Program-made: the position numbers and the translations under genes
Notes under the pieces: generated by a model
Told to the model about the DNA's origin: nothing
The model's input: only the letters and a program-made list of their open reading frames with translations
The model's database searches: none
Origin: an uncultured Spirochaetia bacterium
Lineage (GTDB): Bacteria; Spirochaetota; Spirochaetia; CAKZLE01
Reading direction: 5' to 3'
NCBI GenBank assembly: GCA_937125225.1
Contig: CAKZLE010000031.1
Coordinates: 1 to 64,000, forward strand
Length of the DNA: 64,000 nt
In this document: positions 1,212-42,208 of the stretch, piece after piece
How the letters are laid out: every line of letters begins with the position of its first letter
How positions within the stretch are numbered: position 1 is the first letter of the stretch

Positions 1212-1221
1212 TTGAACCCTC

Positions 1222-2718: not shown

Positions 2719-2734
2719 ATTATGAGAACCTCCT

Positions 2735-3217: not shown

Positions 3218-3240
3218 GGTTTCTCCTTCTGAAACTAAGA

Positions 3241-3265: not shown

Positions 3266-3285
3266 CATCTTCAGTTCACTTCAAT

Positions 3286-4278: not shown

Positions 4279-4307
4279 CTTCTCACTACCTCTCTTGTTT
4301 TTTATAT

Positions 4308-5348
4308 CTACTTACCTTTTGTGAAGGTATACAACGCAAATGTGTCTCTCTGACGATTCGCTGAGAATGCGACACTCGCCTCACCGTCTTCGAAGACGAG
4401 CAACTGGCTTGGTCCGACATCCCCATCGATCTTGGAGACTAGATAAGCTCCATCCTTACAGGTGATCAATTCGATCAGACAATCGTCTCTTCTACTTCCT
4501 ACGATGAATGAAGGTTCCCCGAGAATCTTTCCACCCCAGATAACATGCCCGAAAGCTATTGGATGGGTGAACACTTTCTTATACTCACCATCAATCATCT
4601 TGTTTATCGCAAGTTCATTACCATGGAACATCTCGATAGTCGCTATCTCATATGCACCATCACCGTCGATATCGACGATCGCCATATCACTGATCTCTCG
4701 ATCAATGATCTTCTCGATGACTAGTCCATCCTCTATTCTCTGTGGAAGAGTCACTTCGAACAGACCCTCAACTCCGGAGACGAAGAATCGATCCTCTTCT
4801 CTTTGTAGACAATACCCATGATGTTTGGTTATTCCCTCATAAAAGGTCTTGATCTCCCATTCATCAGTGATGTTCTCTGGTATCTCTGCAAACACAAGAG
4901 AACCTGAAGTACTCCAATCCTGAACCTCAGTCTTGTTCTGACAGAGTTTACCACCTACGAACAGAAGGCTCCCATCAATATCGATCACATCGAAACGGTG
5001 AAGGTAGGGTACTTTACAGACCTCTGTCAGATCCCATCTCTTATTCTCTCTATCATATGTTCCGTAGACGACTACCGACTCTTTTGCATCGAATACTGGA
5101 AAGAAGTTCTGAGTAGCGAAGATCTCACCATTCCTACCAGGAATAGGGACGATACTCATCGTTCCACCGGGTTCTTCCCAGACGACCTCTTTCTCTAATG
5201 ATTCATAATCATACATGTAACAGGGGCCTTGGCCTTCTGCAGCAGCGAACAGCTTTCGCTTTCCATCTATCTCACAGGTAGCGATTGCATATCCCTTCTC
5301 TATGGTTGCAAAATTCTCTCTTGTTATTCTTAGTCCAGTCTCTGACAA
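4308..5348 (-). CDS. FG-GAP/VCBS-like beta-propeller protein of unknown function, first gene of the TTT-ula operon
   Basis: A 346-residue protein without signal peptide or membrane helix. It consists of repeated beta-strand units, several carrying acidic DIDGDG-type calcium-loop-like motifs (FDVIDIDGS, MAIVDIDGDGAYEIATIE), suggesting a cytosolic seven-bladed-type propeller. I do not recognise a defined family. The start is taken as TTG at 5346-5348, because GGAG lies 7 bases upstream; a TTG six codons further up would lie inside the operator. It is the promoter-proximal gene of the operon, so a role in sugar-acid metabolism (lactonase, epimerase or sensor) is an inference. Confidence 0.75.
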   Translation of the reverse strand: MSETGLRITRENFATIEKGYAIATCEIDGKRKLFAAAEGQGPCYMYDYESLEKEVVWEEPGGTMSIVPIPGRNGEIFATQNFFPVFDAKESVVVYGTYDRENKRWDLTEVCKVPYLHRFDVIDIDGSLLFVGGKLCQNKTEVQDWSTSGSLVFAEIPENITDEWEIKTFYEGITKHHGYCLQREEDRFFVSGVEGLFEVTLPQRIEDGLVIEKIIDREISDMAIVDIDGDGAYEIATIEMFHGNELAINKMIDGEYKKVFTHPIAFGHVIWGGKILGEPSFIVGSRRDDCLIELITCKDGAYLVSKIDGDVGPSQLLVFEDGEASVAFSANRQRDTFALYTFTKGK

Positions 5349-5361
5349 ATCTTCACTCCGT

Positions 5362-5379
5362 ACCAATAGGTCTATTGGT
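5362..5379. promoter_or_regulatory. Operator-like palindrome 2 (GntR/FadR type)
   Basis: An 18-base perfect palindrome, ACCAATAG-GT-CTATTGGT, in the leader just upstream of the TTG start. Its half-sites (ATTGGT/ACCAAT) are those of the second palindrome at 5390-5404. It probably contributes to repression or looping by the same regulator. Confidence 0.6.
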
Positions 5380-5389
5380 TTAATGGTTA

Positions 5390-5404
5390 ATTGGTATTAC
5401 CAAT
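5390..5404. promoter_or_regulatory. Operator-like palindrome 1 (GntR/FadR type, ExuR/UxuR-like)
   Basis: A 15-base palindrome, ATTGGTA-T-TACCAAT, immediately downstream of and touching the -10 hexamer. It matches the TGGTnnnACCA pattern bound by FadR-subfamily GntR repressors and closely resembles the ATTGGTATACCAAT core of hexuronate regulators such as ExuR/UxuR. That agrees with a sugar-acid operon. The regulator gene is not in the window. Confidence 0.7.
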
Positions 5405-5431
5405 ACTAAACTGAGATGGTTGATCTGTCAA
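5403..5431 (-). promoter_or_regulatory. Sigma-70 promoter of the propeller-tctCBA-ulaG operon
   Basis: On the minus strand TTGACA (5426-5431) is separated by 17 bases from TAGTAT (5403-5408), a near-consensus vegetative promoter. The palindrome at 5390-5404 overlaps the end of the -10 and the start site, so repressor binding would block transcription. Confidence 0.8.
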
Positions 5432-5475
5432 GTTTTTATTAGGAGATTAGTGGTATTTCCAAGTATCTCTTTTTA

Positions 5476-6186
5476 TTATAAGAAGGTACGAAGAAGATTC
5501 ACTACTGCTGTGAGGAATATCGCAGCACCGACATATCGTTTGTATTGAGATTCTGGAATTAACCTATGGATGAAATATCCGATAAGTATAGCTCCCAAGA
5601 GAAAAGGTGCAGCGATAAGAGAGATTCTCATCCCCTCTGCAGTAAGTACTCCATTAGCAAAATAGAGAGGGACCCTGAATAGTGCGGTGATCGTCCATAA
5701 GAAACCAAGACTCGCACGGAAGCTCCTCTGGTTCCCGAGTTCTGATCCAATGATCGGGATAAAGAAGACACCCAGACTAGTAGCTCCGATCACAAAGCCT
5801 GCTACCACATAAAGAGGTTTCCTCAAACGTGCTGGGACTGTTGGATCCTTCCCACCGATAAGATTGATCCCGTAAATAAGAATGATAACCAAAATGAAGA
5901 TCTTGAAAGTAGTCTCTGGGACCTGACCCATGAAGAGTGTTCCCAGTATCAGCCCGGGAATAGCAAAAAGAGATATTCTACCTATGACTCTCCAGTTCAC
6001 AGACTTAAGATCGCTTAGTACGATGAAGATACTCCCTACCAATGCAAAGACAGGAAGCATACTCACAGCCTCTTTTGCCGGGATGTTCTGTGTCAATAAC
6101 AGGAAGGTGATGATCGAGCCACCGAACCCGAAGATACTCTCTGCAGCATAACCAAGGGATGCACATATAATGATGAATGGGGACAT
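5476..6186 (-). CDS. TauE/SafE family membrane permease (COG0730)
   Basis: A 236-residue membrane protein with 7-8 helices and the family-typical GFGGSIITFLLL in helix 1 and the LGNQRSFRASLGFLW segment in the second half repeat. Members export sulfite, sulfoacetate or other sulfonates, or have unknown anion substrates. It lies upstream of the ula-like operon on the same strand but beyond that operon's promoter, so it is probably a separate unit. An export role for sulfite or sulfate released elsewhere is only a guess. Confidence 0.85.
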   Translation of the reverse strand: MSPFIIICASLGYAAESIFGFGGSIITFLLLTQNIPAKEAVSMLPVFALVGSIFIVLSDLKSVNWRVIGRISLFAIPGLILGTLFMGQVPETTFKIFILVIILIYGINLIGGKDPTVPARLRKPLYVVAGFVIGATSLGVFFIPIIGSELGNQRSFRASLGFLWTITALFRVPLYFANGVLTAEGMRISLIAAPFLLGAILIGYFIHRLIPESQYKRYVGAAIFLTAVVNLLRTFL

Positions 6187-6772: not shown

Positions 6773-7750
6773 ATGATAATACTGAGAAAACGTTTTTTAA
6801 GAAACACTATTCTTTCCATCCTCCTCCTCTCTTCATCAATATACCTCTATTCCTTAGACATTCAGGCCCATAGAGGAGGAAGGGATCTCCTTCCTGAGAA
6901 TACGCTGAGTGCATTCAGGAATGCGGCAGCACTTGGGGTGACGACTCTTGAACTCGATACAGCCATGACAGCTGATGGGATCATCGTCATCAGTCATGAT
7001 CCCTATCTTGCCAACAAGCTTGTCAGAGACAGCGATGGGAAATATGTAGGAGAGTACCCCAAGCTATTTATCAAGGATCTTTCACTAGCCGAGCTCTGGA
7101 CCTACCGTGTGGGGAAGATCAAACCCTATACCTCCTATGCGAAATCACACAAGAATCAGAAGTCCGTACTCACTGAGCATATCCCGACTCTTACTGAACT
7201 CTTTGAATTGATGGATGAACTCGGCAATGATTCGATCAGGTATAATATTGAGATCAAGACCTACCCGGAGTTCCCTGAACATACTCATGATATCACCATG
7301 ATCAGTGAAGCGCTGCTCCAGGTGATCGAGAACTACGGGAAAGCTGAATACTGCACGATACAGTCCTTTGATTGGAGATCCCTCACCTTTATCAAAGAGC
7401 ATGCCCCCGATATCGAAATAGCATGCCTAGTTTCTGAGAATCTGAAGTTCGAAGGGACGACTTTCAATCTGAGACTTGGTAAGAGCGGACCATCTCCCTG
7501 GCTCGATGGTTATGATGCTGATGAATTCTCCACCACCGCAGATCTCGTCTCAACTTTTGGTGCTGATATCATATCGCCTTATTATAAAGATATAACAGAG
7601 GCTGATATCTCACGAGCCCATGCGTTGGGACTGAAGGTGATCCCCTGGACAGTCAATAAGACAGACTTGATGAAACAGTACATCTCTTGGGGGGTGGATG
7701 GACTCATCACCGATAGACCCGATCTCCTCCTGAAGCTGATTGATCAATAA
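6773..7750 (+). CDS. Exported glycerophosphodiester phosphodiesterase (GDPD)
   Basis: A 325-residue protein with an N-terminal signal sequence (basic MIILRKRFLRNT then a hydrophobic stretch) followed by the GDPD TIM barrel. Catalytic elements are visible: QAHRGGRDLLPENTLSAF (HR pair, E/N), LELDTAMTADGIIVISHDP (metal-binding E/D and the second His), NIEIKTYPE and the C-terminal GVDGLITDRPDLL. It would hydrolyse glycerophosphodiesters to glycerol-3-phosphate plus alcohol outside the cytoplasm, resembling GlpQ. It lies upstream of a second, cytosolic GDPD and a Ugp transporter, giving a coherent phosphodiester scavenging set. Confidence 0.93.
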   Translation: MIILRKRFLRNTILSILLLSSSIYLYSLDIQAHRGGRDLLPENTLSAFRNAAALGVTTLELDTAMTADGIIVISHDPYLANKLVRDSDGKYVGEYPKLFIKDLSLAELWTYRVGKIKPYTSYAKSHKNQKSVLTEHIPTLTELFELMDELGNDSIRYNIEIKTYPEFPEHTHDITMISEALLQVIENYGKAEYCTIQSFDWRSLTFIKEHAPDIEIACLVSENLKFEGTTFNLRLGKSGPSPWLDGYDADEFSTTADLVSTFGADIISPYYKDITEADISRAHALGLKVIPWTVNKTDLMKQYISWGVDGLITDRPDLLLKLIDQ

Positions 7751-7801
7751 TATATATGAGAAGAACACTCATAGTCATAATGGCAGATTTGTTTTAATTT
7801 G

Positions 7802-7831
7802 TTGCAAACACTCACCAACATGTTGTATAAT
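7802..7831 (+). promoter_or_regulatory. Sigma-70 promoter of the GDPD-ugp operon
   Basis: TTGCAA (7802-7807), an 18-base spacer and a consensus TATAAT (7826-7831) lie 28 bases before the ATG of the cytosolic GDPD gene. This suggests that gene and ugpBAE are transcribed separately from the exported GDPD. Confidence 0.7.
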
Positions 7832-7859
7832 GAGTATTGCTTAACAAAGAGGCAATGCT

Positions 7860-8552
7860 ATGATCTGTATTGGACACAGAGGGGCTGCCGGCTGGGAACC
7901 CCAGAATACCTGTCTTGCTTTTGACAAGGCCATCACTTTGGGTTGTGATTACATTGAGACCGATATACATATATGTAAATCAGGGGAGATGGTCCTATGT
8001 CATGATGCTAGGATCGATTCGACCTCTGATGGAAAGGGCTTCATCAGAGACCTGACCCTCAAAGAACTTCTCACCTTTGATTTCGGTAAGAATCAACAGA
8101 TCATGACCCTTGAAGAGCTCCTTGAACAATGTAGAGGGAAGATCAATCTCAATCTTGAATTAAAGAGTACGGGATCCGGGGCTGCAGTTGCAGCAACACT
8201 CACCAGGGAGATACAATCAGGGAATTGGAATCCTTCTCAACTTCTCATAACCTCCTTCAATCACTTAGAGCTGCAGAGCTTTCATTCATTAGCTTCCTCA
8301 ATACCAACTGGAGCACTCATCAAATCAGTACTCATAGGTCAAGCAGATTATATAAGGAGCTTGGGATGTGACACCCTTGTCGGTAGTCTGGAGTTCGCCT
8401 CAAAAGAGCTGGTGAGAAGCATGCATACAGCTGGTATTCAGATTCTTGTCTATACAGTTAACGATCCAAGAGATATCGATCATATGATCGAGATAGGTGT
8501 TGATGGGATCATCAGCAACTATCCCGATAGGGTTTTGAATAAGATAATATAG
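7860..8552 (+). CDS. ugpQ: Cytosolic glycerophosphodiester phosphodiesterase, UgpQ-like
   Basis: A compact 230-residue GDPD without signal peptide, the size of UgpQ. It starts directly with ICIGHRGAAGWEPQNT (catalytic HR and E/N), followed by YIETDIHICKSGEMVLCHDA (metal ligands and second His), LNLELKS and the terminal IGVDGIISNYPDR. It would cleave imported glycerophosphodiesters into glycerol-3-phosphate and an alcohol. It is 59 bases upstream of ugpB and behind its own promoter. In E. coli ugpQ is also part of the ugp operon. Confidence 0.93.
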   Translation: MICIGHRGAAGWEPQNTCLAFDKAITLGCDYIETDIHICKSGEMVLCHDARIDSTSDGKGFIRDLTLKELLTFDFGKNQQIMTLEELLEQCRGKINLNLELKSTGSGAAVAATLTREIQSGNWNPSQLLITSFNHLELQSFHSLASSIPTGALIKSVLIGQADYIRSLGCDTLVGSLEFASKELVRSMHTAGIQILVYTVNDPRDIDHMIEIGVDGIISNYPDRVLNKII

Positions 8553-8611
8553 TTTTGAGTGATGTTCTTATGGTTTTTACGCCTTCAGGCGATAAACAAA
8601 AGGAGTGTTTT

Positions 8612-9952
8612 ATGAAAAGATTTTTAATTGTCTTACTTGTACTCATGCTTGGTTCTTCATTCATCTTTGGAGCTGGGCAGCAGGAGGTGTCTCTTGTTGA
8701 TGAGGATGCGAATGTCACTATCGACTTCTGGCATGCTATGTCGGGAACTCGTATCGAACTGATCCAGAGCATTGTTGATGACTTCATGGCACAGAATCCG
8801 AATATCACCGTCAATGTTCAATACACTGGTTCATACAATGACACCTTGAATAAGGCTGTTTCTGCTCATAAAGCTGGGAATGCACCACATGTATTCCACT
8901 CCTATGAGATAGGGACTTTAGGTATGATCAACAGTGGGATGATCTCCCCTGTAGATCAATTAGCGGATCGGTATGATATAGAGATTCCTTGGGATGACTT
9001 CTTCGTACCTGTTCAGAGTTATTACAAATACCAAGGAAGACACTATTCCATGCCTTTCAACTCTTCCACACCTTTGATCTTCTACAATAAGACTTTGTTC
9101 GAAAAAGCAGGATTGGATCCTGAGAACCCACCTAAGACCTATGAGGGAATCAGAGAAGCCGCAATTGCTTTGAAAGCCTCAGGAATAGATACCCCAGTCA
9201 CCTGGAACCTTCACAGCTGGTATTTTGAGCAGATGTGCTGTCTCCAAGATGCGCCGTTCGTGAACAATGACAATGGTCGAGGTAAAGAACTTCCTACAGC
9301 AGTCCTTTTCAATGGTGCAGCAGGAAATAAGGCTCTCGATTGGTGGATCGGTATGTATGATGATGGCCTTTTCATGGATGTAGGACCTGGATGGTCAAAC
9401 CACAGAGCAGCTTTCGGTGCAGGAGAGGTCGCAATGGTCATGTCTTCCTCCTCAGATGTCAATCTGCTAACAAAGTCTCTAGCTGAGAAGGGCTGGGAGA
9501 TGGGAACAGGCTTCATTCCTCGACCTGAAGGTGCAACCGGTGGGGTCGCTATCGGTGGTGGATCTTTATGGATGACCAATAACCATCCAGCTGAAGAAGA
9601 ACTTGCAGCTCTAAAACTTGTTGAATTCATCTCTAGTGATGAACCTCAGATGGCATGGCACAAAGGTACAGGGTACTTCCCAGTTCGAAAGACCGCTATG
9701 GATAAGTTAGAGAAAGAGGGTTGGTTCATAGAGAACCCAAATTACCTGACAGCTTTTGAGCAGCTATTGGTAAGTCCTGAGACTTTGAATACTGCAGGAA
9801 GCCTCTTAGGTGTCTTCCCCGAGACAAGAGCAATCATCCAGTCAGAGATTCAGGAATGTTATGCAGGAAAGGATGTCTCCAAAGCATTGGATGACGCGGC
9901 AGCACAGGTCAATGATCTCATCACAGAGTGGAATGAGTTGATCGACCTCTAG
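8612..9952 (+). CDS. ugpB: UgpB-like glycerol-3-phosphate/glycerophosphodiester ABC binding protein
   Basis: A 446-residue exported binding protein: signal peptide MKRFLIVLLVLMLGSSFIFG and spirochaete-style AGQQE mature start. It contains UgpB-like segments ITVNVQYTGSYNDTLNKAV, FNSSTPLIFYNKTLFEKAGL, WHKGTGYFPVR and the late NTAGSLLGVFPETRAI. The start at 8612 follows AGGAGTG; a 19-residue upstream extension is unlikely. The ligand would be glycerol-3-phosphate, glycerophosphocholine or a related diester, consistent with the two GDPD genes before it. A perfect hairpin follows the gene. Confidence 0.92.
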   Translation: MKRFLIVLLVLMLGSSFIFGAGQQEVSLVDEDANVTIDFWHAMSGTRIELIQSIVDDFMAQNPNITVNVQYTGSYNDTLNKAVSAHKAGNAPHVFHSYEIGTLGMINSGMISPVDQLADRYDIEIPWDDFFVPVQSYYKYQGRHYSMPFNSSTPLIFYNKTLFEKAGLDPENPPKTYEGIREAAIALKASGIDTPVTWNLHSWYFEQMCCLQDAPFVNNDNGRGKELPTAVLFNGAAGNKALDWWIGMYDDGLFMDVGPGWSNHRAAFGAGEVAMVMSSSSDVNLLTKSLAEKGWEMGTGFIPRPEGATGGVAIGGGSLWMTNNHPAEEELAALKLVEFISSDEPQMAWHKGTGYFPVRKTAMDKLEKEGWFIENPNYLTAFEQLLVSPETLNTAGSLLGVFPETRAIIQSEIQECYAGKDVSKALDDAAAQVNDLITEWNELIDL

Positions 9953-9966
9953 ACATTATTAACAAC

Positions 9967-9996
9967 ACAGCCCTATACGAATTCGTATAGGGCTGT
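9967..9996 (+). other. Perfect 30-base palindrome between ugpB and ugpA
   Basis: ACAGCCCTATACG and its complement face each other around AATT, giving a 13-base-pair RNA stem with a 4-base loop. It is followed by TCTATACTT, not a U tract. It sits 14 bases after the ugpB stop codon and about 20 bases before the ugpA start, the same place as the other binding-protein hairpins in this window. Confidence 0.85.
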
Positions 9997-10015
9997 TCTA
10001 TACTTGGAGAACACT

Positions 10016-10885
10016 ATGAAACAGGCAGGTTTTTCTTCAAAATACCTACCCTATCTCTTATTGGTACCAACCTTCGCAGTACTGATCATCTTCCTATTCT
10101 ACCCGGCATTCGAGACTTTCAGGCTCACCTTCTATAAGGTTCACCCCTATTCAGGAGCTGAGAAATTCGCCGGTCTCTATAATCTGAAGAAGATCTTCAC
10201 GAACCCAGATTACCTGAGCAGTTTCTGGACTTCAGCGATCTTTGCTATTGCAGTCATCGGGTTCGGACTACTCACCTCTTTACTGCTTGCACTTCTGTTA
10301 AATCAGAATATAAAGGGCGCCAAGATCTATCGCTCCCTTCTTATCTGGCCCTATGCCCTCTCTCCCGCGATAGCAGGAGCTCTATTCAATTTCCTTTTTA
10401 ATCCAGCTAATGGAATCATAGGTTATTTCACAGGAATCAGGACATGGATGACTAACGGGTCAACTGCCCTGTTCGTGGTCATCATCGCTGCAGTCTGGAA
10501 GAACCTCGGTTATAATATCATATTCTACCTGACTGCTCTCAGGAATATACCAAAGGATGCTCTTGAAGCTGCTGAACTTGATGGAGCAGGACCTGTACGC
10601 AGATTCTTCTCCATCACATTCGCCTTTCTCTCCCCAATGACCTTCTTCCTTCTTGTCATGAACACCACCTATGCCTACTTCAGTGCATTCGGTCTCATTG
10701 ATGTCCTGACCGAAGGTGGACCAGCAGAATCTACGAATGTCTTGATCTATCAACTCTATAAGGACTTCTTCGTGAACTCTCGAATCGGATATGCAGCTGC
10801 AGAGAGTTTCATCCTATTCATGATCGTGGTATTGATCACTGTCATGCAGTTTCAGACTACTGAGAAAAAAGTCTATTACCAATAG
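10016..10885 (+). CDS. ugpA: UgpA-like ABC transporter permease
   Basis: A 289-residue CUT1 permease with six predicted helices. The cytoplasmic EAA loop is present as ALEAAELDGAGPVRRFFSITF. The N-terminal PYLLLVPTFAVLIIFLFYPA and IWPYALSPAIAGALFNFLFN match UgpA. The start at 10016 follows GGAGA at 6-7 bases; an upstream TTG overlaps that ribosome site. It pairs with UgpE. No ugpC ATPase gene is present in the operon, so a shared MsmX/UgpC-type ATPase encoded elsewhere is implied. Confidence 0.93.
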   Translation: MKQAGFSSKYLPYLLLVPTFAVLIIFLFYPAFETFRLTFYKVHPYSGAEKFAGLYNLKKIFTNPDYLSSFWTSAIFAIAVIGFGLLTSLLLALLLNQNIKGAKIYRSLLIWPYALSPAIAGALFNFLFNPANGIIGYFTGIRTWMTNGSTALFVVIIAAVWKNLGYNIIFYLTALRNIPKDALEAAELDGAGPVRRFFSITFAFLSPMTFFLLVMNTTYAYFSAFGLIDVLTEGGPAESTNVLIYQLYKDFFVNSRIGYAAAESFILFMIVVLITVMQFQTTEKKVYYQ

Positions 10886-10899
10886 GAGGCAAAGAGTAA

Positions 10900-11724
10900 A
10901 TGATACGTTCAAAAAGAAAGACAACGGCAATCCATCTATTGCTGATCATCTCAGTACTCATCGTCTGCCTCCCGGTATTATTAGCTTTGGTCATCAGTTC
11001 ACAGACGGAAACAGAGGTCCTAGCCTACCCTCCAAAACTGACCTTCTCTACAAACTGGGTCTCCAATTATACTACGGCCTGGCAGAGGATCAACTTAGGG
11101 AGGATGATGTTCAATTCAGCATTCATAGCGATCATGGTCACCATAGGCAAAGTCATCATGAGTCTGTTAGCAGCTTTTGCCTTCACCCATTTCGATTTCA
11201 AAGGGAAACAGATTCTATTCTTCTTAGTGATAGTGACTCTTTTACTACCGGTACCTGTACGGATCGTAGCACTCTTTGAAGTCGTCAGATCCTTTGGTTG
11301 GATCAATACCTATGCAGGACTGATCATACCCTTCTGGGCCAGTGCGACAGGGACATTCCTCTTCATCCAAAGATTCAAGACCGTTCCTTCAGAATTGATC
11401 GATGCATCCAAGATGGATGGCTGCAGACCTATGCAGTATTTCTTCAAAGTACTGCTTCCGTTGACCAAGAGTACCATAGGGGCCTTGGTTGTCATCGAGT
11501 TCATCTATATCTGGAACCAGTACCTATGGCCTCTTATGGCAACTAATACAGATAACATGAGAGTAGTCCAGATAGGGATCAAGATGCTGATGAATGCAGA
11601 ATCATCAAACAATTGGGGTGTCATCATGGCTGGTGTCATCATGACAATGATCCCACCACTATTGGTATTCTTCATCCTTCAGGAAAGCTTTATGAAAGGC
11701 TTTGCACTACAGAGTGAGAAATAG
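10900..11724 (+). CDS. ugpE: UgpE-like ABC transporter permease
   Basis: A 274-residue MalG-type permease with six helices; the EAA loop reads PSELIDASKMDGCRPMQYFF. LLPVPVRIVALFEVVRSFGWI and the C-terminal QESFMKGFALQSEK are typical of UgpE. It begins 14 bases after ugpA with AGGAGGCAAAG upstream of the ATG, and the next gene begins 7 bases after its stop. Confidence 0.93.
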   Translation: MIRSKRKTTAIHLLLIISVLIVCLPVLLALVISSQTETEVLAYPPKLTFSTNWVSNYTTAWQRINLGRMMFNSAFIAIMVTIGKVIMSLLAAFAFTHFDFKGKQILFFLVIVTLLLPVPVRIVALFEVVRSFGWINTYAGLIIPFWASATGTFLFIQRFKTVPSELIDASKMDGCRPMQYFFKVLLPLTKSTIGALVVIEFIYIWNQYLWPLMATNTDNMRVVQIGIKMLMNAESSNNWGVIMAGVIMTMIPPLLVFFILQESFMKGFALQSEK

Positions 11725-11731
11725 GAGTCAT

Positions 11732-12679
11732 ATGATTATGAGTAGATCTCAGGCAATCGGGAGAGCCTTTGGAAAGGTGATCCTCATCGGTGATCAATTC
11801 GTCATACAAGGAGTCCCCGCAGTCCTAGCAGCACTCCCCTTCGAGACGATCTGTACTGTTACCTATGATCCGGAAGGAATACCAGGCTGGTCTATGGCAG
11901 ATCACCGAGTAGAGGTTCCTGGGTATAAAGAGGCTAAGATAGCTGACCAGCAGGAGGCCATGGATACCATGACCAAAGAGATGGGATTAGCACAGTACTC
12001 CCTCTCGATAGAACTGACTGGAGACCTCCTAGCAGGAAGTGGGGTCGGAGCAAGTGCAGCGAACTGTGTCTCCTATGCGAGGGCCTGCAGTGAACTCTTC
12101 GATCTTGGGTATGATGATCCAACGGTGAACTACTTTGCCTGGCGAGGAGAGTTCGGGTATCATGGACTCCCTTCAGGACTTGATAACACCGTCTCGACCT
12201 TTGGGGGGACTATTCTCTATGAACTTCATGACCAAAAGAAGTCCTTCGCGACTTTGAATCTGAAGAGACCCATCGAAGTCGTCATGGGAAACAGTGGGAT
12301 CACAGCCGATACTTCGAAACTCAAAGGGTTTCTTGAAGCACAGAGAGATCTAGACCCAAGACTATTCACCGACCGATTGGAGATGGTACGAGCTCAAGTA
12401 TATGCCTTGAAAGAGGCTTTGGAATCAGATGATCTGAAAAAAGTCGGAACGATCATGAATGAGAATCATCACCTTCTCATAGAGATGGGACTCTCTCATC
12501 CGAGACTGATCGAACTATGTGATCAGGCCTGTTCCCTTGGAGCCTATGGTGCGAAGGTCACTGGAGGGGGACGTGGTGGTTATATGGTAGCATTGACACC
12601 GGGGAAGGCCCTTCAAGATAAGGTAGCCAGTGCATTCGAAGAACAGGGCATCTCAACGATCAGAGGAGTGATACGCTAA
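11732..12679 (+). CDS. GHMP-family kinase, mevalonate-kinase-like, in the ugp operon
   Basis: A 315-residue cytosolic GHMP kinase. Motif 1 is GKVILIGDQFVIQGVPAVLA, motif 2 (ATP loop) LLAGSGVGASAA at about 99-110, then HGLPSGLDNTVSTFGG, which is the mevalonate-kinase signature, and motif 3 VTGGGRGGYMVAL near the C-terminus. Mevalonate kinase phosphorylates mevalonate with ATP, but no other mevalonate-pathway gene is nearby. AGGAG precedes two possible starts, ATG 11732 (used here) and ATG 11738. The 7-base gap to ugpE implies co-transcription, so it may phosphorylate a product of imported glycerophosphodiesters; this is inference. Confidence 0.8.
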   Translation: MIMSRSQAIGRAFGKVILIGDQFVIQGVPAVLAALPFETICTVTYDPEGIPGWSMADHRVEVPGYKEAKIADQQEAMDTMTKEMGLAQYSLSIELTGDLLAGSGVGASAANCVSYARACSELFDLGYDDPTVNYFAWRGEFGYHGLPSGLDNTVSTFGGTILYELHDQKKSFATLNLKRPIEVVMGNSGITADTSKLKGFLEAQRDLDPRLFTDRLEMVRAQVYALKEALESDDLKKVGTIMNENHHLLIEMGLSHPRLIELCDQACSLGAYGAKVTGGGRGGYMVALTPGKALQDKVASAFEEQGISTIRGVIR

Positions 12680-12705
12680 GATACCCATATAAGTGAAAGC
12701 ATTCA

Positions 12706-14109
12706 TCAGCGATTATAGGCTTCCCAGAATCTCTGACTGACAGGGGTCTGGGTATCATCCCAGAGCTCTCTTTGGTGCAATAACTCCTGTCTCAAATCAT
12801 CAAGGAGCTCTTTATGATCTTCATGTTCAGCTAGATCGTTCTTCTCAAAAGGATCATCTTCAATATTGAAGAGTTGGGTATGCTTTCCGTGTTCTCCAGC
12901 ATATTCGATAAGTTTATAGCCTCCCCTCTTTACTCCTCGCAGTAGCTCTGCATAGGCGAAGTAGAGCGTATCCCTTATGTCATCCTTTAGCATCTCCTCA
13001 CCTGAGATCTGAGAATAGAGGCTATTCCCCTCGATCCCATCAGGTTTATCGATAGCTAATGCATCACAGATCGTTGGGAAGATATCAAGAAGGTAGCAGG
13101 GATCTGAACAAAGCTTGTTCGCTTTGATCTGTGGACCAGAGAAGATCAGAGGTACTCTCACACTGTGTTCATAGGCACTCTGCTTACCGAACAAGCCATG
13201 TTGCCCAAGAGCTAGACCGTTATCACCAGCTAAGATGATAATGGAGTTCTCATACTCCCCGATACTCTTCAGCTTTTCTATGATCCTACCAATCTGATCA
13301 TCAAGATGAGTGATCATGCCATAGTACTCTGCTAGATGTGTCCTCACCTCATGCTCAGTCCTCGGATAGGGGGCAAGTACCTCGTCTCTCACATTTCTGA
13401 TACCATATTCAAACAGATGCTCTTCTCTGAAATTCTCAGGCAAGCTCACCGTCTCAGGTTCATACATCTTCAGGTACTTCTCAGGCATGGTCCTCGGATC
13501 ATGCGGTGCCATGAATGCTGTATAGAGGAAAAAGGGGTTATCGCCTCTCTGGCTATCAAGCCAGTTCACCGCATAGTCTGCGAAAAGATTACTTGAATGC
13601 TTTCCCGGATTAATATGATCTGAGATCATATTATTGACGACCCGTGAATGAAAGGCATCAGTTGTATAGGGTACTGAATAATCATATTCACCACTCGGAT
13701 CAAAGTCACATGCAGGAATATTCCAATGATCCCACATACCACCGAAGAAGATCTCCCCGCCGGAGGTGAAACTTCTCGCATAAGCTGCAGGACTATTATG
13801 CCACTTGCCTATACCACAGGTATCATACCCTGCCTTCTGAAGAACCTCTCCCAATAGGATGTGGTCTTCGGGGATATAGGAGCCGTTGTCTGCAAGATGA
13901 AAAAGGGTCTTACCCGTATGGATCATAGCTCTAGAAGGCATACAGACAGCCCCACAGGTACCACCAGGAATATGAGCATTGGTAAAGGCTACCCCGCTCG
14001 ACACTAGTAGATCCATATAAGGAGTCTTTACTTCTTTGTTCCCCAAAGCTCCAATGGTATCAAACCGCTGATCATCGGTCAGTATGAAAACGATATTAGG
14101 TTTCTTCAT
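12706..14109 (-). CDS. Formylglycine-dependent sulfatase (family S1), cytosolic, linked to TTT system 2
   Basis: A 467-residue type I sulfatase. It begins KKPNIVFILTDDQRFDT (metal-binding DD) and carries the maturation motif Cys56-Met-Pro-Ser-Arg60 (C-x-P-x-R), followed by HTGKTLF. GIGKWHN, AGDNGLALGQHGLFGK and the C-terminal FNIEDDPFEKNDLAEH are the expected sulfatase blocks. There is no signal peptide, so it acts in the cytoplasm and needs a cytosolic FGE or anSME, which is not in this window. It is the last gene of the tctC2-tctB2-tctA2 unit (22 bases after tctA2), suggesting that the imported anion is a small organosulfate. Confidence 0.93.
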   Translation of the reverse strand: MKKPNIVFILTDDQRFDTIGALGNKEVKTPYMDLLVSSGVAFTNAHIPGGTCGAVCMPSRAMIHTGKTLFHLADNGSYIPEDHILLGEVLQKAGYDTCGIGKWHNSPAAYARSFTSGGEIFFGGMWDHWNIPACDFDPSGEYDYSVPYTTDAFHSRVVNNMISDHINPGKHSSNLFADYAVNWLDSQRGDNPFFLYTAFMAPHDPRTMPEKYLKMYEPETVSLPENFREEHLFEYGIRNVRDEVLAPYPRTEHEVRTHLAEYYGMITHLDDQIGRIIEKLKSIGEYENSIIILAGDNGLALGQHGLFGKQSAYEHSVRVPLIFSGPQIKANKLCSDPCYLLDIFPTICDALAIDKPDGIEGNSLYSQISGEEMLKDDIRDTLYFAYAELLRGVKRGGYKLIEYAGEHGKHTQLFNIEDDPFEKNDLAEHEDHKELLDDLRQELLHQRELWDDTQTPVSQRFWEAYNR

Positions 14110-14131
14110 GATATTCTCTTTCCTGTTTATC

Positions 14132-15634
14132 CTATCTATTTTGCAATTTTCTGGCCTGTATGACTGAGATCACCAACGAGATCGCTGAGATCAACAGGAA
14201 GACCAGAGATATTGGCTTCTGTATGAAGATCATCAAGGATCCTCTGGAGATGATAAGAGCCTGTCTGAAACTCGTCTCTGCAAGGGGGCCGAGTACCAAA
14301 GCCAATACCATAGGTACCAATGGGAAATCAAACTTCAAGAAGAAGTAGCCCACTATCCCGAAGACCAACATAGCGAAGACATCGAACATCGAACTGTTGA
14401 CGGCAAAAGCGCCAACTGCACAGAAGATCAATAGCAACGCAACGAACAGTTTCTTATTGATGTTCCTGATCTTCACGAACAGTTTGATATAGACCTTTGC
14501 CTGTAGGAACATGATGATGTTCACAAAGAACAGTCCGATGATGATCGCATAGGTCAATGGTGCATGATCACTGAAAAGTGCTGGTCCTACGGGTAATCCA
14601 TGCATGATCAAAGCACCCATCATGACTGCTGTTACCACATCTCCAGGTATTCCCAAAGTCATCATTGGTATCAGGGTCGCACCAGTGATACCATTATTTC
14701 CGGCCTCAGTAGCTGCTACACCTTCTAAAGCACCATGTCCGAACTCCTCTGGATGTTTCGAAGATCTCTTTGCTTCATTATAACTCGCAAAGGAGGAGAG
14801 GATCGCACCAGTTCCTGGAACAGCCCCTATGAACGTTCCGATGAATGAAGATTTTATGATAGTCTTCATGCAATCGAGCAGCTCCCCTCGAGTTAGTTTT
14901 TCACCTTCTATAGCGTTACTGATCTCAAAGCTATCATCCTCATGGTTCTTCCATTTCTTCCAGAAGTCCTCACAGATATTCATCAACTCAGAAATCGAGA
15001 AGACTCCGACTAGGGCAGGGACCAGATTGATCCCACTCATCATGTTATAACTACCAAAAGATAATCTTGCAGTTCCCATGATAGGATCTATCCCTATCAT
15101 ACTGATGTAGATACCGATGAGACCCGAGACTAAACCTTTGAGTAAGTTCTTCGAACTTACCGATATGATGATACTCAATCCGAAAATGGCTAGAGCAAAG
15201 AACTCTGCAGGTCCGAACTTTACTGCGAAAGTCGCAATGATCGGCGCAACGAATAGTAGAACTACAGTACTGATCAATCCTGCGATAACAGAAGCTATCA
15301 GTGCCATGTTCAAGGCTTTGACAGCCTTACCTTTCTTTGTCAGAGGATACCCCTCTATCAGGGTAGCTGCTGCAGCTGGTGTTCCTGGAGTATTGATGAG
15401 GATCGCAGTGATGGATCCTGCATAGTTACCGGCACAGTAGGCTCCAAGAAGCAGGATCATACCTGCAAGAGGATCCATACCGAAGGTTATCGGTAACAGA
15501 AGTACAATAGCCATCAAGACAGTTAGTCCTGGAATCGAACCAAAGATCAATCCGGCGAGAACTCCAAGATTCATCATAGCGAACACTTTAAGAGAGAGGA
15601 TACCTATAAAGCCACTTAGTATATTGGTTAACAT
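14132..15634 (-). CDS. tctA: Tripartite tricarboxylate transporter, TctA (copy 2)
   Basis: A 500-residue TctA with about 11-12 helices. Family signatures are LIFGSIPGLTVLMAIVLLLP, INTPGTPAAAATLIEGYPL, FIGTFIGAVPGTGAILSSF and LIPMMTLGIPGDVVTAVMMG. It is clearly related to but diverged from copy 1 (1222-2718); for example, it has a charged insertion around residues 225-250 (KKWKNHEDDSFEI). The ATG at 15634 is five bases after GGAGG. It lies between tctB2 and the sulfatase. Confidence 0.95.
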   Translation of the reverse strand: MLTNILSGFIGILSLKVFAMMNLGVLAGLIFGSIPGLTVLMAIVLLLPITFGMDPLAGMILLLGAYCAGNYAGSITAILINTPGTPAAAATLIEGYPLTKKGKAVKALNMALIASVIAGLISTVVLLFVAPIIATFAVKFGPAEFFALAIFGLSIIISVSSKNLLKGLVSGLIGIYISMIGIDPIMGTARLSFGSYNMMSGINLVPALVGVFSISELMNICEDFWKKWKNHEDDSFEISNAIEGEKLTRGELLDCMKTIIKSSFIGTFIGAVPGTGAILSSFASYNEAKRSSKHPEEFGHGALEGVAATEAGNNGITGATLIPMMTLGIPGDVVTAVMMGALIMHGLPVGPALFSDHAPLTYAIIIGLFFVNIIMFLQAKVYIKLFVKIRNINKKLFVALLLIFCAVGAFAVNSSMFDVFAMLVFGIVGYFFLKFDFPLVPMVLALVLGPLAETSFRQALIISRGSLMIFIQKPISLVFLLISAISLVISVIQARKLQNR

Positions 15635-15643
15635 CAACGCCTC

Positions 15644-16120
15644 CTATATGATCCCGAACAGACCGATTTTTGGTAGTGGGATATTCAAGACGACATCCAT
15701 GATCAAATAGACCAAGACCACTATTGCTAACAGTATCAGATAGTTCTTATAGTTCCTCTCTTTCAAGATGAACATGATGAGCGGTAGGATGGTCAAGGAT
15801 GCAATGAAATAACCTGCAAAGACCATGACTACTGCATATGCAACCATCAACAAAAAGATGGTGAATGGAAATCGGTGAAATACTACAGAGGATCTCACAT
15901 GATCAGCCTCTCCCCTCTCCTTCTGATAGAACACGATTGCCTGGATCAACATGATCAAAGCCATAATGATCACCCCTCTCGATACCATGATTGGTACGGC
16001 TCTTGGGGATACACCAGCAAGCGAAGCCTCCTGTATCTGGGTGATCGCAAAGATATGCATCACGATACCTGTAAACAGAATGATCAGACTCAACATGAAT
16101 TTCTCTACATAAAGCTTCAT
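15644..16120 (-). CDS. tctB: Tripartite tricarboxylate transporter, TctB (copy 2)
   Basis: A 158-residue protein with four helices in the usual TctB arrangement (helix 1, loop with SPRAVPIMVSRGVII, helices 2-4). The start at 16120 follows GGAG at 5 bases; the upstream GTG is less likely. It ends 9 bases before tctA2. Confidence 0.88.
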   Translation of the reverse strand: MKLYVEKFMLSLIILFTGIVMHIFAITQIQEASLAGVSPRAVPIMVSRGVIIMALIMLIQAIVFYQKERGEADHVRSSVVFHRFPFTIFLLMVAYAVVMVFAGYFIASLTILPLIMFILKERNYKNYLILLAIVVLVYLIMDVVLNIPLPKIGLFGII

Positions 16121-16135
16121 ATACACTCCAAATGA

Positions 16136-16167
16136 ATAGCGGTTGATCTATTATAATCAACCGCTAT
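16136..16167 (-). other. Intergenic hairpin between tctC2 and tctB2
   Basis: Twelve-base perfect arms (ATAGCGGTTGAT / ATCAACCGCTAT) around an 8-base loop lie between the binding-protein gene and tctB2. No U tract follows in the direction of transcription. It has the same position and form as the hairpin after tctC copy 1. Confidence 0.8.
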
Positions 16168-16181
16168 CATATTCTCATCTA

Positions 16182-17108
16182 TTAGTTGAAGTAACTTTCG
16201 AAGAAGGCTGCTTCAGATCTTACTTTCTTCTCTAAAGAAGCTTTATCAGCACCATAGATATCGATCTTGGAATTCTTAGTGAATTCCTTGAAAGAATCTG
16301 CATTCAGAAGTTTTTCAAATCCTGCAGCGAGTGTATCGACTACATCGTCTGGAGTATCTTTTGGAGCATATAGTCCATTATATGATTCAAGTACTACATC
16401 ATATCCAAGCTCTTTTGCCGTAGGAACTCCAGGAAGAAGTTCTGATCGTTTTGAGCTGAGGATACACAGTACTCTGAGGTCTTCCATACTATCAACGATC
16501 GTCGTTCTTGAGTCTGAGATATCAACATGTCCACCGAGTGCTGCAACACTTGACTCATTAGATCCTGAGAAAGGTACATGGTCTGCCTGTATTCCCATCT
16601 TGTCCATCAGCATGCCCAAAGCAGCTGCAGGTCCACTACTGGCACCAGGAGATCCATAAGTCACTGAACCCATGTTCTTAAGATCGTCTAAGCTCTCGAT
16701 TCCAGAGTCTTTCCCGGTTACTACGAGAGTATGCTCCAAAGTGATTCCCAATACTGGTTTGAAGTCATCAATCGAGTAATCTACTGCGATATTCTGTGGT
16801 GTAAGGGTGAATTGTCCACCAGAAGCCCACATCACGGTATAACCATCTGCCTTAGCCATCTTTGAGGCCATCGCACTCTTTGTACCGGTTGCACCCGATT
16901 TATCGACGATCACTACAGGAACACCGAAGACATCCTCTGCTCCTTCGATCAACACTCTAGCCTGAGTATCTGAAGATCCTCCTGGAGGCCATGACATATT
17001 CATTTCGATCGCTTTTGAAGGAAATACTTTCTGTTCACTTGCACCCTGTGCAAAAACCGATCCACCAACGAGAGATAGGATCATCAGGATCACTAAACCT
17101 TTTTTCAT
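16182..17108 (-). CDS. tctC: TTT substrate-binding protein TctC (Bug family, copy 2)
   Basis: A 308-residue exported binding protein with signal peptide MKKGLVILMILSLVGGSVFA and mature QGASEQ. Bug-family landmarks are IEMNMSWPPGGSSDTQAR, VVIVDKSGATGTKSAMA and GSPGASSGPAAALGMLMDKM. It is only distantly similar to copy 1, so a different ligand is likely. It is the first gene after a strong promoter, and its operon ends with a sulfatase. Confidence 0.93.
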   Translation of the reverse strand: MKKGLVILMILSLVGGSVFAQGASEQKVFPSKAIEMNMSWPPGGSSDTQARVLIEGAEDVFGVPVVIVDKSGATGTKSAMASKMAKADGYTVMWASGGQFTLTPQNIAVDYSIDDFKPVLGITLEHTLVVTGKDSGIESLDDLKNMGSVTYGSPGASSGPAAALGMLMDKMGIQADHVPFSGSNESSVAALGGHVDISDSRTTIVDSMEDLRVLCILSSKRSELLPGVPTAKELGYDVVLESYNGLYAPKDTPDDVVDTLAAGFEKLLNADSFKEFTKNSKIDIYGADKASLEKKVRSEAAFFESYFN

Positions 17109-17229
17109 TTTTCAAACTCCTTTGATTAAGCATACTGCTTTACATAATGATGATAGTTGTTTTATCTACTTATTTTCACAATGAAATTAAGTATACAAAT
17201 AAGAACTTTCATCTGTTAATGATTTTTTA

Positions 17230-17258
17230 ATTCTAACCTTGAATTTTTCAGCTGTCAA
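17230..17258 (-). promoter_or_regulatory. Sigma-70 promoter of tctC2-tctB2-tctA2-sulfatase
   Basis: TTGACA (17253-17258), 17 bases, TAGAAT (17230-17235) on the minus strand. The leader to tctC2 is long (about 115 bases) and AT-rich and contains a small palindrome TTTCA-CAA-TGAAA at 17174-17186, a possible operator for the neighbouring ROK repressor. Confidence 0.78.
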
Positions 17259-17271
17259 TCAAAAATTTCAA

Positions 17272-18495
17272 CTATTTTATCGAGTAGTCTAACACACCCT
17301 CTAACACCAGAGCGATAGAGCCTTTCACGACTGCATCATCGATGTTCTCGGATTTTAGAAGGCGAATCTCTCTAGGAACACCCCGGAGCCCATGAGCAGA
17401 GAAACTCTTACGGACTTCTGAAAAGAAAAAATCCGATTTACTGATCTTTCCACCAATGATCACAGCTTCAGGGTTTAGGATATTTGAGATATTCGCAATA
17501 CTGATCCCAAGCATATCGCCCGCTTCAGATAGGATCTTTCGGGCGAACTCATCGCCGAATTTTGCTGCTTGCGCTATCATCTTTGCAGTGATCCTCTCAG
17601 GTTTGTTATCACACATAGGTAATAACAGAGACTCAGGATATCGGTCTATCTTTCGTTTGGCTGTGCGAGCTATACCTCTTCCTGAGACGAACTCAGCAAG
17701 GCAGTTCATCTTTCCACAGAAACACAATCTATCCTGATACCCTTCAGGGGGTGTGATATAGATATGCCCGAACTCTCCGGTGAACCCATCATAACCCTGG
17801 GCAACCTTACCCTCATGAAGAATACCTGCACCAATACCATAGTCGATCGAAATATAGAGGAGTTCGTTGATATCACGACCGACTCCATAGAGGTATTCTC
17901 CCAAAGTCGCCACTCTTGAAAGATAATCGAGTATGACCGGAATCCCAAACTCTTTCTCGATCGGCTTACTCACATCGATATTATGCCATTTCTGGACTGG
18001 AGAGAATTCGATGGTACCGGTACGTTTATTGACATACCCGGCTACAGCAATACCGATCCCTTTTACCATATCACGGTTCAGCGTACCCTCAGCAAGTAGA
18101 TCATGAATGAGATCGATGACAAGTTTGAGATCTATCTCAAACTCTGAAGAGAGTTCATATTCGATACTCTTGGAGACCAGGTTCTCACCGTTGAGATCTG
18201 CAATGACCCCATTGATCTGGGTCAGCCCCCACTCAATGCCGATCACATAACAACTCTTAGCATTGAATTCTAAGATCACAGGAGGTCTTCCCCCACTAGA
18301 ACCACCAATACCGATATTCCTGACTAATCCCTCAGCGATCAACTGATTGACGATACGGGTGACTGTTGGTGAACTGATTCCCGTCACTGAAGTGATATCG
18401 GCCCTAGAGATCTCTTTAGCATCTCTTATAGCCTTTAGAATCACACTCTTATGGGTATTTCTCACTGTCTGTAGGGTAGACTCTGATCTCTTCAT
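17272..18495 (-). CDS. ROK-family transcriptional repressor (NagC/XylR type)
   Basis: A 407-residue protein: N-terminal winged helix-turn-helix (about residues 20-60; ISRADITSVTGISSPTVTRIVNQL), then a ROK domain. The structural zinc motif reads Cys258-Phe-Cys-Gly-Lys-Met-Asn-Cys265, preceded by EFGHIYI. The position of the kinase catalytic Asp (NDANVAALGE in true ROK kinases) is changed here to DYLSRVATLGE, which fits a sugar-sensing repressor and not an enzyme. It lies directly upstream of, and on the same strand as, the tctC2 promoter, so it probably controls that operon and itself. Confidence 0.9.
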   Translation of the reverse strand: MKRSESTLQTVRNTHKSVILKAIRDAKEISRADITSVTGISSPTVTRIVNQLIAEGLVRNIGIGGSSGGRPPVILEFNAKSCYVIGIEWGLTQINGVIADLNGENLVSKSIEYELSSEFEIDLKLVIDLIHDLLAEGTLNRDMVKGIGIAVAGYVNKRTGTIEFSPVQKWHNIDVSKPIEKEFGIPVILDYLSRVATLGEYLYGVGRDINELLYISIDYGIGAGILHEGKVAQGYDGFTGEFGHIYITPPEGYQDRLCFCGKMNCLAEFVSGRGIARTAKRKIDRYPESLLLPMCDNKPERITAKMIAQAAKFGDEFARKILSEAGDMLGISIANISNILNPEAVIIGGKISKSDFFFSEVRKSFSAHGLRGVPREIRLLKSENIDDAVVKGSIALVLEGVLDYSIK

Positions 18496-18690
18496 AGCTC
18501 CCTATCATACATGGGGTTCGTTCTACTGTAAAGAGATGACCATTAATGTGAGCATCCCTTCGGTATCAGCAGGAACTATTCAGATCTCCCGTTTCGCTGA
18601 GTTCTCACACTGATTGGTTCTTGTCTCTCGCTTGTCATAGGTAAAGAAGTATCGTATATTACCATTTGAGTGCAATATCTTGGAGCGATC

Positions 18691-18912
18691 ATGAAAGTCA
18701 TAAGGGCCATGAAGACCTATATCACCGATATCAAGAATCTGATAGTTCATGGAGTCATTGGCATAGGAATTCTACTTGCTGCCTACTTCCTGCCGGTTTC
18801 TGCACCAATAAGGATCGGGATCCTTTTACTGGTCGTGGCAGGGAACACTCTGAGAATGAGAATTGCGAAGAGTAAGAGAGTCGATGACTCAACAGAAGGA
18901 GAGACTATATGA
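18691..18912 (+). CDS. Small membrane protein of unknown function
   Basis: A 73-residue protein with two predicted helices (around VHGVIGIGILLAAYFLPV and IRIGILLLVVAGNTL) and a charged C-terminus. The start at 18691 has TTGGAG about 6 bases upstream; an extra 7-residue upstream start is less likely. Its TGA overlaps the ATG of the next gene by 4 bases, so the two are translationally coupled. No family recognised. Confidence 0.65.
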   Translation: MKVIRAMKTYITDIKNLIVHGVIGIGILLAAYFLPVSAPIRIGILLLVVAGNTLRMRIAKSKRVDDSTEGETI

Positions 18913-19625
18913 GCGAGACGATGTTAATGATTCTAGAGGTCTCTTTTGATATCCTCTATCTACTGATCATTTGGACTATGGTCGTGATCATGTTCAAGCG
19001 AAGACGGAACCATCCGAAACCTGAAACATCAATCTGGCTAGCAGGGTTCTTCCTTCTAGCCTTCGGTGATACCGGTCATGTCGGATTCAGAGTCGCAGCC
19101 TATGCTCTTGGTGATATCTCATCGGCTCTTACCATAGGTTCAAGTAGCATTATATTAGTTGGTATCGGTTCCCTAGCGACCGCCTATACGATCACCGTCC
19201 TCTACATGCTCCTAATGGAAGCTTGGGCTTCACGTAATGAGGTGAAGAAGGGAATGACCTACAAGGTAGTCATGCTCCTTGGAATTGCTCGTATGATCAT
19301 CATGATCTTTCCCGGTAATGCCTGGAACAGCATGTACACCCCCTACACCTGGTCACTGCTGAGAAACACTCCTCTTACTATCATGGGGATCATCATCGCG
19401 GTCTCATTTCTTAGATCAGGGAAGAAACACTCGGATGTATTTCAGAAGAGACTTGCCTGGTGTATATTCGTATCATTCGGATTCTACCTACCGGTGATCC
19501 TCTTTGTCAGATTCATCCCCATGCTTGGCATGCTCATGATGCCAAAAACCGTTGCCTATCTCTTCATGGCAGGATATGCCCTCAAAGAGGTCTTTCCTAA
19601 TAGTCAGAAGTCTTCGCTCTCTTAA
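18909..19625 (+). CDS. Seven-helix membrane protein of unknown function
   Basis: A 238-residue polytopic protein with about seven helices. After helix 1 there is a basic loop (FKRRRNHPKPE), then helix 2 with the motif LLAFGDTGHVGFR, which looks conserved or functional because of its charged and polar residues in a membrane segment. I do not recognise the family. It is translationally coupled to the small membrane protein upstream, and its last 29 bases overlap the end of the convergent gene at 19597-20004. Confidence 0.7.
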   Translation: MSETMLMILEVSFDILYLLIIWTMVVIMFKRRRNHPKPETSIWLAGFFLLAFGDTGHVGFRVAAYALGDISSALTIGSSSIILVGIGSLATAYTITVLYMLLMEAWASRNEVKKGMTYKVVMLLGIARMIIMIFPGNAWNSMYTPYTWSLLRNTPLTIMGIIIAVSFLRSGKKHSDVFQKRLAWCIFVSFGFYLPVILFVRFIPMLGMLMMPKTVAYLFMAGYALKEVFPNSQKSSLS

Positions 19626-20004
19626 GTCTTAATTTACCTAGCATGATGATCAATCCCAATATCTCCCATATGATCAAGGGAGCTATGAGCAGGGCCGCTA
19701 TTGGCAAGAAAGTAAACGTATAAAGACAGACATAGAAAGCAGAGATAACAACAAGAATATTTCCAGCTATCCCTAATATCAATGAGGTGAATCCCAAAGT
19801 ATAGAGGGGATACAACCAGATGATAATAATCAGATAGAGGATTCTATAGGTATATTGATTCCAAGTATGATCTTCTTCAAGGATCACTAGATAGAAAGCT
19901 AAGAATATCAGCAGTGTCAAAAAGACCCAGACTGGCATGATCACGCGATCTATCCAAGAAAGTCTCTTCACTACCTTGGCACCATTTATCAATTCAGTCT
20001 TCAT
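19597..20004 (-). CDS. Hypothetical membrane protein
   Basis: A 135-residue protein with four predicted helices and a basic C-terminus (KLRLKRAKTSDY). It overlaps the tail of the convergent gene. No good ribosome site is visible before the ATG, which lowers confidence, but the hydrophobic pattern and absence of a competing frame support a real gene. Function unknown. Confidence 0.55.
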   Translation of the reverse strand: MKTELINGAKVVKRLSWIDRVIMPVWVFLTLLIFLAFYLVILEEDHTWNQYTYRILYLIIIIWLYPLYTLGFTSLILGIAGNILVVISAFYVCLYTFTFLPIAALLIAPLIIWEILGLIIMLGKLRLKRAKTSDY

Positions 20005-42206: not shown

Positions 42207-42208
42207 TG

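Follow-up and report, generated by a model that had tools for sequence, protein, structure and literature searches.

What does a tripartite tricarboxylate transporter (TTT) bring into the cell when its operon ends in a sulfatase? This question is raised by positions 12706-17258 of a 64,000-nucleotide stretch of DNA from an uncultured Spirochaetia bacterium (referred to here as the window), where the three subunits of a TTT system and a type S1 sulfatase are encoded by consecutive genes on the minus strand. Algae, mucus and animal glycans are rich in sulfated sugars, yet little is known about the bacterial systems that take up organic sulfate esters. Based on sequence comparisons, we consider it likely that this operon serves to import a small organic anion bearing a sulfate ester, most probably a sulfated carbohydrate or sugar acid, which is then desulfated in the cytosol. 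The binding protein TctC2 would capture the sulfated anion outside of the membrane and the membrane subunits TctA2 and TctB2 would carry it inward with an ion gradient. The sulfatase, which would be matured by the anaerobic sulfatase-maturating enzyme of this genome, would then strip the sulfate in the cytosol, with the freed organic part entering general metabolism and the sulfate being either discarded or used. A ROK-family regulator encoded upstream would probably keep the operon repressed, acting via a 27-bp inverted repeat, as long as neither the ligand nor its desulfated product is present. Capture, import and desulfation constitute the simplest chain of events since the sulfatase appears to be cytosolic and the only other products of the operon form an importer. 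The original prediction, made from the window alone, had also favored a small sulfated acid or sugar sulfate as the substrate, and it is partly supported by our analysis. Specifically, uptake of a sulfated compound by a TTT system followed by internal desulfation is backed by recurrence of the pairing, by neighboring maturase and TauE genes and by an orthologue of the operon in a different family of the class.

The operon and its products

The operon begins with the gene for TctC2, the periplasmic solute-binding protein (308 amino acids; 16182..17108; PF03401, 121 bits), and continues with TctB2, the small membrane subunit (160 amino acids from a GTG that is uncertain as the start codon; 15644..16126; PF07331, 56 bits), TctA2, the large membrane subunit (501 amino acids; 14132..15637; PF01970, 491 bits), and the sulfatase (467 amino acids; 12706..14109; PF00884, 170 bits against a cut-off of 25, and PF16347, 66 bits). 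These four minus-strand genes thus run from 17108 down to 12706, with intergenic gaps of 55, 6 and 22 bp, and are probably co-transcribed. They are preceded on the same strand by the ROK regulator (407 amino acids; 17272..18495), which contains both a ROK domain (PF00480, 187 bits) and an N-terminal winged-helix DNA-binding part (MarR/HTH_24 matches). All five proteins score above curated Pfam cut-offs in a Pfam scan, so the gene content of the operon and the adjoining regulator are as originally described.

The sulfatase is a type S1 enzyme that would act on a sulfate ester. It contains a Cys-type formylglycine motif, C56-M-P-S-R, which fits the pattern C/S-x-P/A-x-R, and among 28 aligned sequences that include the one from the window, residues D12, R60, K102, H104, H203 and D296 are invariant while C56 is kept in at least 90%. 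An AlphaFold2 model built from these 28 sequences has a mean pLDDT of 93, and its best structural neighbor is the S1_25 module 6hr5 (VIA Z 43.6, 30% identity over 366 residues), followed by chondroitin 4-sulfatase 6j66 (Z 42.0) and by S1_11 and S1_46 (7oz8) sulfatases near Z 40. The fold and catalytic motif are common to the S1_25, S1_46 and S1_11 enzymes, whereas the window sulfatase differs from them in residing in a TTT operon and in having no visible signal peptide. The protein starts with MKKPNIVFIL at the onset of the catalytic domain, 22 bp past the tctA2 stop codon, and no signal peptide is seen by eye, with no predictor having been applied. This agrees with the cytosolic location given in the original prediction, and the enzyme appears to be cytosolic on these grounds. 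A Cys-type sulfatase in an anaerobe needs an anaerobic sulfatase-maturating enzyme, and the genome encodes one (G000:C18:13336-14427; TIGR03942, 448 bits against a cut-off of 349). Several more specific assignments were tried and dropped. The sulfatase scores far under the cut-offs of the NCBIfam equivalogs for choline-sulfatase, arylsulfatase and PehA; for choline-sulfatase (TIGR03417), it reaches 166 bits versus a curated cut-off of 433. Its best matches of solved structure comprise several different sulfatases of carbohydrates, with 26-30% identity over the structural alignments, and therefore no ligand can be assigned from sulfatase homology.

TctC2 carries an N-terminal signal sequence as judged by eye, and its closest solved sequences are TctC/Bug proteins. 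An AlphaFold2 model of TctC2 that is derived from only four sequences (pLDDT 79) aligns best with Bug27 (Z 31.5). In known TTT binding proteins the ligand is held by a GGx(T/S)D loop, and in the TTT-C protein for alginate, replacement of either Thr25 or Asp26 by Ala abolished ligand binding (PMC13390454). The corresponding loop of TctC2 is GGSSD, with Ser-Asp following the GGx. Reading the substrate from the TctC2 pocket was abandoned given the pLDDT of 79 from four sequences and closest structures that bind unrelated ligands.

Pairing of TTT systems with sulfatases

Pairing of a TTT system with a sulfatase is a repeated feature of this genome, which has 18 sulfatase-domain matches and seven TctA genes. 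For five of these seven, a PF00884 gene is found within 4 kb, as against 0.37 expected under random placement (P 8e-6), while none of nine DctM genes of TRAP transporters, which served as a control, is near a sulfatase. The five clusters vary both in gene order and in regulator: the window has ROK and TctCBA-S (S being the sulfatase), C3 has ROK and S-TctCBA, C22 has TctCBA-S-LacI-S, C18 has GntR-TctC-UroD-like-TctB-TctA-S-TauE and C24 has S-TctCBA. The two TctA genes with no sulfatase are that of C34 and that of TTT1, a second TTT operon of the window (TctC1-TctB1-TctA1, 1222-4278, in the region 126-6186). The neighbors of TTT1 encode a metallo-beta-lactamase-fold protein, a 352-amino-acid protein and a TauE-type protein, and its TctA groups with the sulfatase-linked TctA of C24.

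The operon is also conserved as a unit. A locus from another family of the class, L236, has ROK, TctC, TctB, TctA and sulfatase genes in the same order as the window, with identities of 54% for ROK, 79% for TctC, 55% for TctB, 79% for TctA and, for a sulfatase that is broken into two pieces by a stretch of undetermined bases, 67% and 54%.

Across the class, the pairing was counted in two sets of genomes, with near-relatives counted several times in these and all other tallies so that the P values are too small. Among 20 relatives that were selected because they have both families, two of which (G025 and G091) were already known to hold pairs, 7 of 94 TctA genes are within 4 kb of a sulfatase (expected 1.45, P 5e-4). 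The second set consists of 50 further genomes, which are all of those among G098-G197 with a TctC match. Here at least 12 of 150 listed TctA genes (178 were found) lie within 4 kb of a sulfatase (expected 1.99, P 7e-7) and at least 16 of the 150 lie within 6 kb. The count of 12 is a lower bound because 150 of the 178 TctA and 150 of the 229 sulfatase matches were used, and because L210, one of 40 unlinked control loci hand-picked at rough intervals along the list, held a sulfatase. The sulfatase gene is located before, between or behind the tct genes, depending on the locus.

A tree built from 68 TctA rows (29 linked to a sulfatase and 39 unlinked) requires 7 changes of the sulfatase label versus about 22 in shuffles, and at least 5 of the 7 are forced by strongly supported branches. 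Thus, the pairing has changed several times and is otherwise stable within clades. TctA2 belongs to a set of 12 rows, all linked to a sulfatase and one of them from Bacillota, with support for the group (91/67) that is not firm. A profile of these 12 rows was used for a prediction test over 394 genomes of the class, with a score threshold taken from a gap in the score list and fixed before neighborhoods were read over about 6 kb either side of TctA, or less at contig ends. A sulfatase is present at 15 of 23 TctA loci that score at least 640 bits versus 3 of 17 that score 580-610 bits (Fisher p 0.004). The 23 loci exclude the profile rows and derive from genomes not used before, save for L234 (G066) from the 20-genome set; the 17 are all but one (G247:C1) of the 18 loci in their range; and L222, whose sulfatase was found by tblastn, is counted as linked. 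The TctA2-like subfamily is consequently predictive of sulfatase neighbors.

Genes that accompany the pairing were tallied for 49 linked loci (663 kb) and 62 unlinked loci (677 kb). A sulfatase maturase is near 10 of the linked loci versus one of the unlinked loci (p 0.002), and the five of these ten maturases that were scanned all exceed the TIGR03942 cut-off. TauE-type proteins, one of which belongs to TTT1 of the window, are near 6 linked and no unlinked loci, with all five that were scanned matching PF01925. Also confined to linked loci in this tally are DUF3604 proteins (10/49 versus 0/62), MLE-like members of the enolase superfamily (7/49 versus 0/62) and PdxA (3/49 versus 0/62), while UroD-like genes occur at 6/49 versus 1/62. 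A maturase-like match was seen at the unlinked locus L255.

The linked sulfatases are diverse in sequence around a constant core. All 33 sulfatases within 6 kb of TctA or TctC keep C-x-P-x-R (29 by pattern and 4 by eye), as do all 25 sulfatase rows of the prediction set that span the motif, with six of the total of 58 scored by eye. The motif types include CMPSR, CSPSR, CGPCR, CMPAR, CQPxR and others, and therefore a single type of transporter has become associated with several sulfatases. Such an assortment would be expected if the ligands share a sulfate and differ in their organic part. In loci L160, L170 and L175-L179, sulfatase, DUF3604-like, enolase-superfamily-like and TctCBA genes recur together and may specify a pathway that handles a sulfated sugar acid. 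Loci L156, L171 and L172 have a TctBA-sulfatase-TctC arrangement with PdxA-like dehydrogenases, and a xylose-isomerase-like TIM-barrel gene is found in L171, where scanned.

A broader possibility, which we hold only tentatively, is that a TTT subfamily has become specialized as sulfate-ester importers, with each member paired with one of several cytosolic sulfatases and with the ligand recognized via its sulfate head group. Among TctC proteins with a readable ligand loop, Ala replaces Thr in 22 of 36 linked versus 8 of 50 unlinked proteins (p 2e-5, a tally that counts relatives several times), and four of the 8 unlinked Ala-type proteins are sulfatase-less members of the same TTT subfamily. 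This substitution in most of the subfamily suggests that the sulfate head group, and not a carboxylate, is what the binding proteins recognize. An aromatic residue before the GG of the loop was also considered as a marker; Trp occupies this position in 25 of 36 linked proteins but also in 25 of the 50 that are unlinked, and for this reason it was not used. If the broader reading is true, then the class, along with one or more Bacillota lineages, would have a general strategy of taking up organosulfates intact and desulfating them in the cytosol, and many TTT genes labeled "tricarboxylate" would be wrongly labeled. The neighboring sulfatase would also provide a handle for finding each TTT ligand, and it would become directly testable whether desulfation takes place in the cytosol instead of outside of the cytoplasm.

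Known TTT systems and competing explanations

The TTT system of the window shares its three subunits, Pfam families and binding-protein fold with TctCBA, BugD/BugE, AdpC, MatC and TphC. Known ligands of these citrate and dicarboxylate systems mostly carry two carboxylates, and the window operon differs from those systems in holding a sulfatase. 3-Sulfolactate is a C-S sulfonate rather than a sulfate ester. SlcHFG, a TTT linked to 3-sulfolactate degradation, resembles the window system in its family and in having a sulfur-bearing anion as ligand, but differs in that the available text of a 2018 review mentions no sulfatase with it; the same text allows for TTT ligands with "other functional groups such as sulfate and amide" and includes a galactarate/glucarate TTT (PMC5812351). 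The TTT for alginate oligosaccharides in Vibrio sp. C42 indicates that the family can import anionic sugars, with the difference that its ligand is a uronic acid and that no sulfatase is described in the available text (PMC13390454). Anionic sugars and sulfur-bearing acids are thus within reach of the TTT family. Full-text literature searches, with coverage that did not extend to subscription papers and preprints, found no report of TTT-sulfatase pairing among the titles and abstract openings listed, nor is such pairing described in the available text of PMC10838667, PMC7029141, PMC6383258, PMC6277516, PMC4454575 or PMC2864759. The system is best filed as a known transporter family and a known enzyme family in a recurrent pairing that we did not find described before.

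A number of observations weigh against import of a sulfated anion coupled to cytosolic desulfation. No sulfatase is seen at eight of the 23 high-scoring TctA loci over the stretch that was read. Three more TctA proteins of at least 640 bits that have no listed sulfatase nearby (G025, G045 and G129:C16) were left out of the 23 as coming from used genomes, and with these added the count becomes 15/26 (p 0.013). TctC2 has Ser in its ligand loop and not the Ala of most linked relatives, as does its L236 orthologue, and therefore the Ala signature points to the subfamily rather than to TctC2. With regard to regulation, ROK genes are only mildly more common at linked loci (10/49 versus 5/62), and the inverted repeat as a palindrome on its own is within chance, with 24 of 300 shuffles reaching its score. 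Additionally, the DNA available around all 14 close relatives of the sulfatase other than that of L236 (49-59% identical; L049-L058 from other phyla and L099-L102 from the class), which amounts to 4 to 20 kb each and is under 11 kb for four of them, contains neither a TctA nor a TctC match. Two of these loci, L050 (Marinobacterium) and L100, have ABC transporter genes instead of TTT genes. The sulfatase subfamily is therefore not tied to TTT systems in general. At L050, the protein after the ABC transporter genes is, judging from its N-terminus, presumably a sulfatase maturase. As to the eight misses, five are from one genus (L232, L233, L235, L238 and L241), and four of these (L232, L233, L235 and L238) keep a regulator-like gene that elsewhere follows the sulfatase.

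The lack of TTT genes beside these 14 relatives in the available DNA fits a model in which the substrate of the TTT is an ordinary di- or tricarboxylate and the sulfatase gene is a passenger that became inserted at the operon end. Consistent with this model, the C34 TTT of this genome is beside genes that we take to encode citrate lyase, the classical TTT setting. Characterized TTT ligands are moreover mostly dicarboxylates in the available text of the review cited above (PMC5812351). We nevertheless regard a passenger sulfatase as unlikely, since five of the seven TTT systems of this genome are paired and pairings are repeated elsewhere, since the sulfatase changes place relative to the tct genes from locus to locus and since the whole unit is conserved in L236. 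Still less probable is a role of the enzyme as a formylglycine-dependent hydrolase of phosphonate monoesters or phosphodiesters, with a phosphate or phosphonate ester as the imported compound. Phosphonate monoester hydrolases do share the fold and are next in the structural ranking at Z 39 (4uph, Z 39.2), and TctC2 passes the Pfam Phosphonate-bd cut-off (32.7 versus 27 bits) with a fold that resembles PhnD/PtxB at Z 15-16. However, the best matches of the hydrolase in both sequence and structure are carbohydrate sulfatases (S1_25, S1_46 and S1_11 among them), by differences in Z that are small, and it carries a SGSH_C domain. A comparably low probability is assigned to the same machinery serving sulfur scavenging rather than carbon supply. 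Sulfate would be released inside of the cell by an operon that has no dedicated sugar-catabolic gene, as scavenging would have it, whereas the DUF3604, enolase-like and PdxA genes of related clusters point to catabolism. The TauE proteins in 6 of the 49 clusters also speak against scavenging, since they would discard a sulfur oxyanion. Import and cytosolic desulfation of a sulfated anion remains the reading that we prefer.

Candidate regulatory DNA and neighboring genes

The ROK gene is located upstream of tctC2 with a 163-bp gap and is codirectional rather than divergent, so it is either the first gene of the unit or is read from its own promoter. The gap contains a promoter-like site on the minus strand, TTGACA-17-TAGAAT (17230..17258), that matches 11 of 12 consensus positions. 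The original prediction considered this to be a good promoter, an assessment that holds for the match itself and for the presence of a corresponding site, TTGACA-17-CATACT, in the ROK-TctC intergenic region of L236. By itself the site proves little, as 22 promoter-like sites are found in 10000-20000 versus 19.7 by chance. A second minus-strand site, TTAACA-18-TATACT (17190..17219), is a consensus match only (10 of 12 positions) and shares 4 bases with the candidate operator.

This candidate operator is a 27-bp inverted repeat, TACTTAATTTCA-TTG-TGAAAATAAGTA (17167..17193, minus strand), of which 24 of 27 positions are identical in the L236 intergenic region, with none of 60 base shuffles reaching that value (the best being 19) and the rest of the ROK-TctC intergenic region being dissimilar between the two loci. 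Weaker copies are present in L236 in the same intergenic region (14.4 bits) and upstream of the L236 ROK gene (13.7 bits). A scan of the window found no second copy above 9 bits, and the repeat was not found in seven scanned ROK-bearing linked loci (L143, L168, L174, L176, L178, L231 and L240), an eighth, L104, being outside of the scan. Given this result and the mild excess noted above, ROK was dropped as a hallmark of the cassette. The repeat is the best candidate for the ROK operator, based on two loci, and the operator region initially put forward can be narrowed to this candidate at 17167-17193, which is conserved in one orthologous locus.

Several other genes of the window deserve mention. 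An operon on the opposite strand (7860-12679) converges on the sulfatase. The convergent genes of 6773-12679 encode two glycerophosphodiester-phosphodiesterase-like proteins (one of which was scanned), a UgpB-like binding protein with two permeases and a GHMP kinase that is just below the mevalonate-kinase cut-off. Further away, 40707-52569 contains three more sulfatase genes, the last two of which are adjacent, among large minus-strand genes, and this region is possibly a sulfated-glycan utilization locus.

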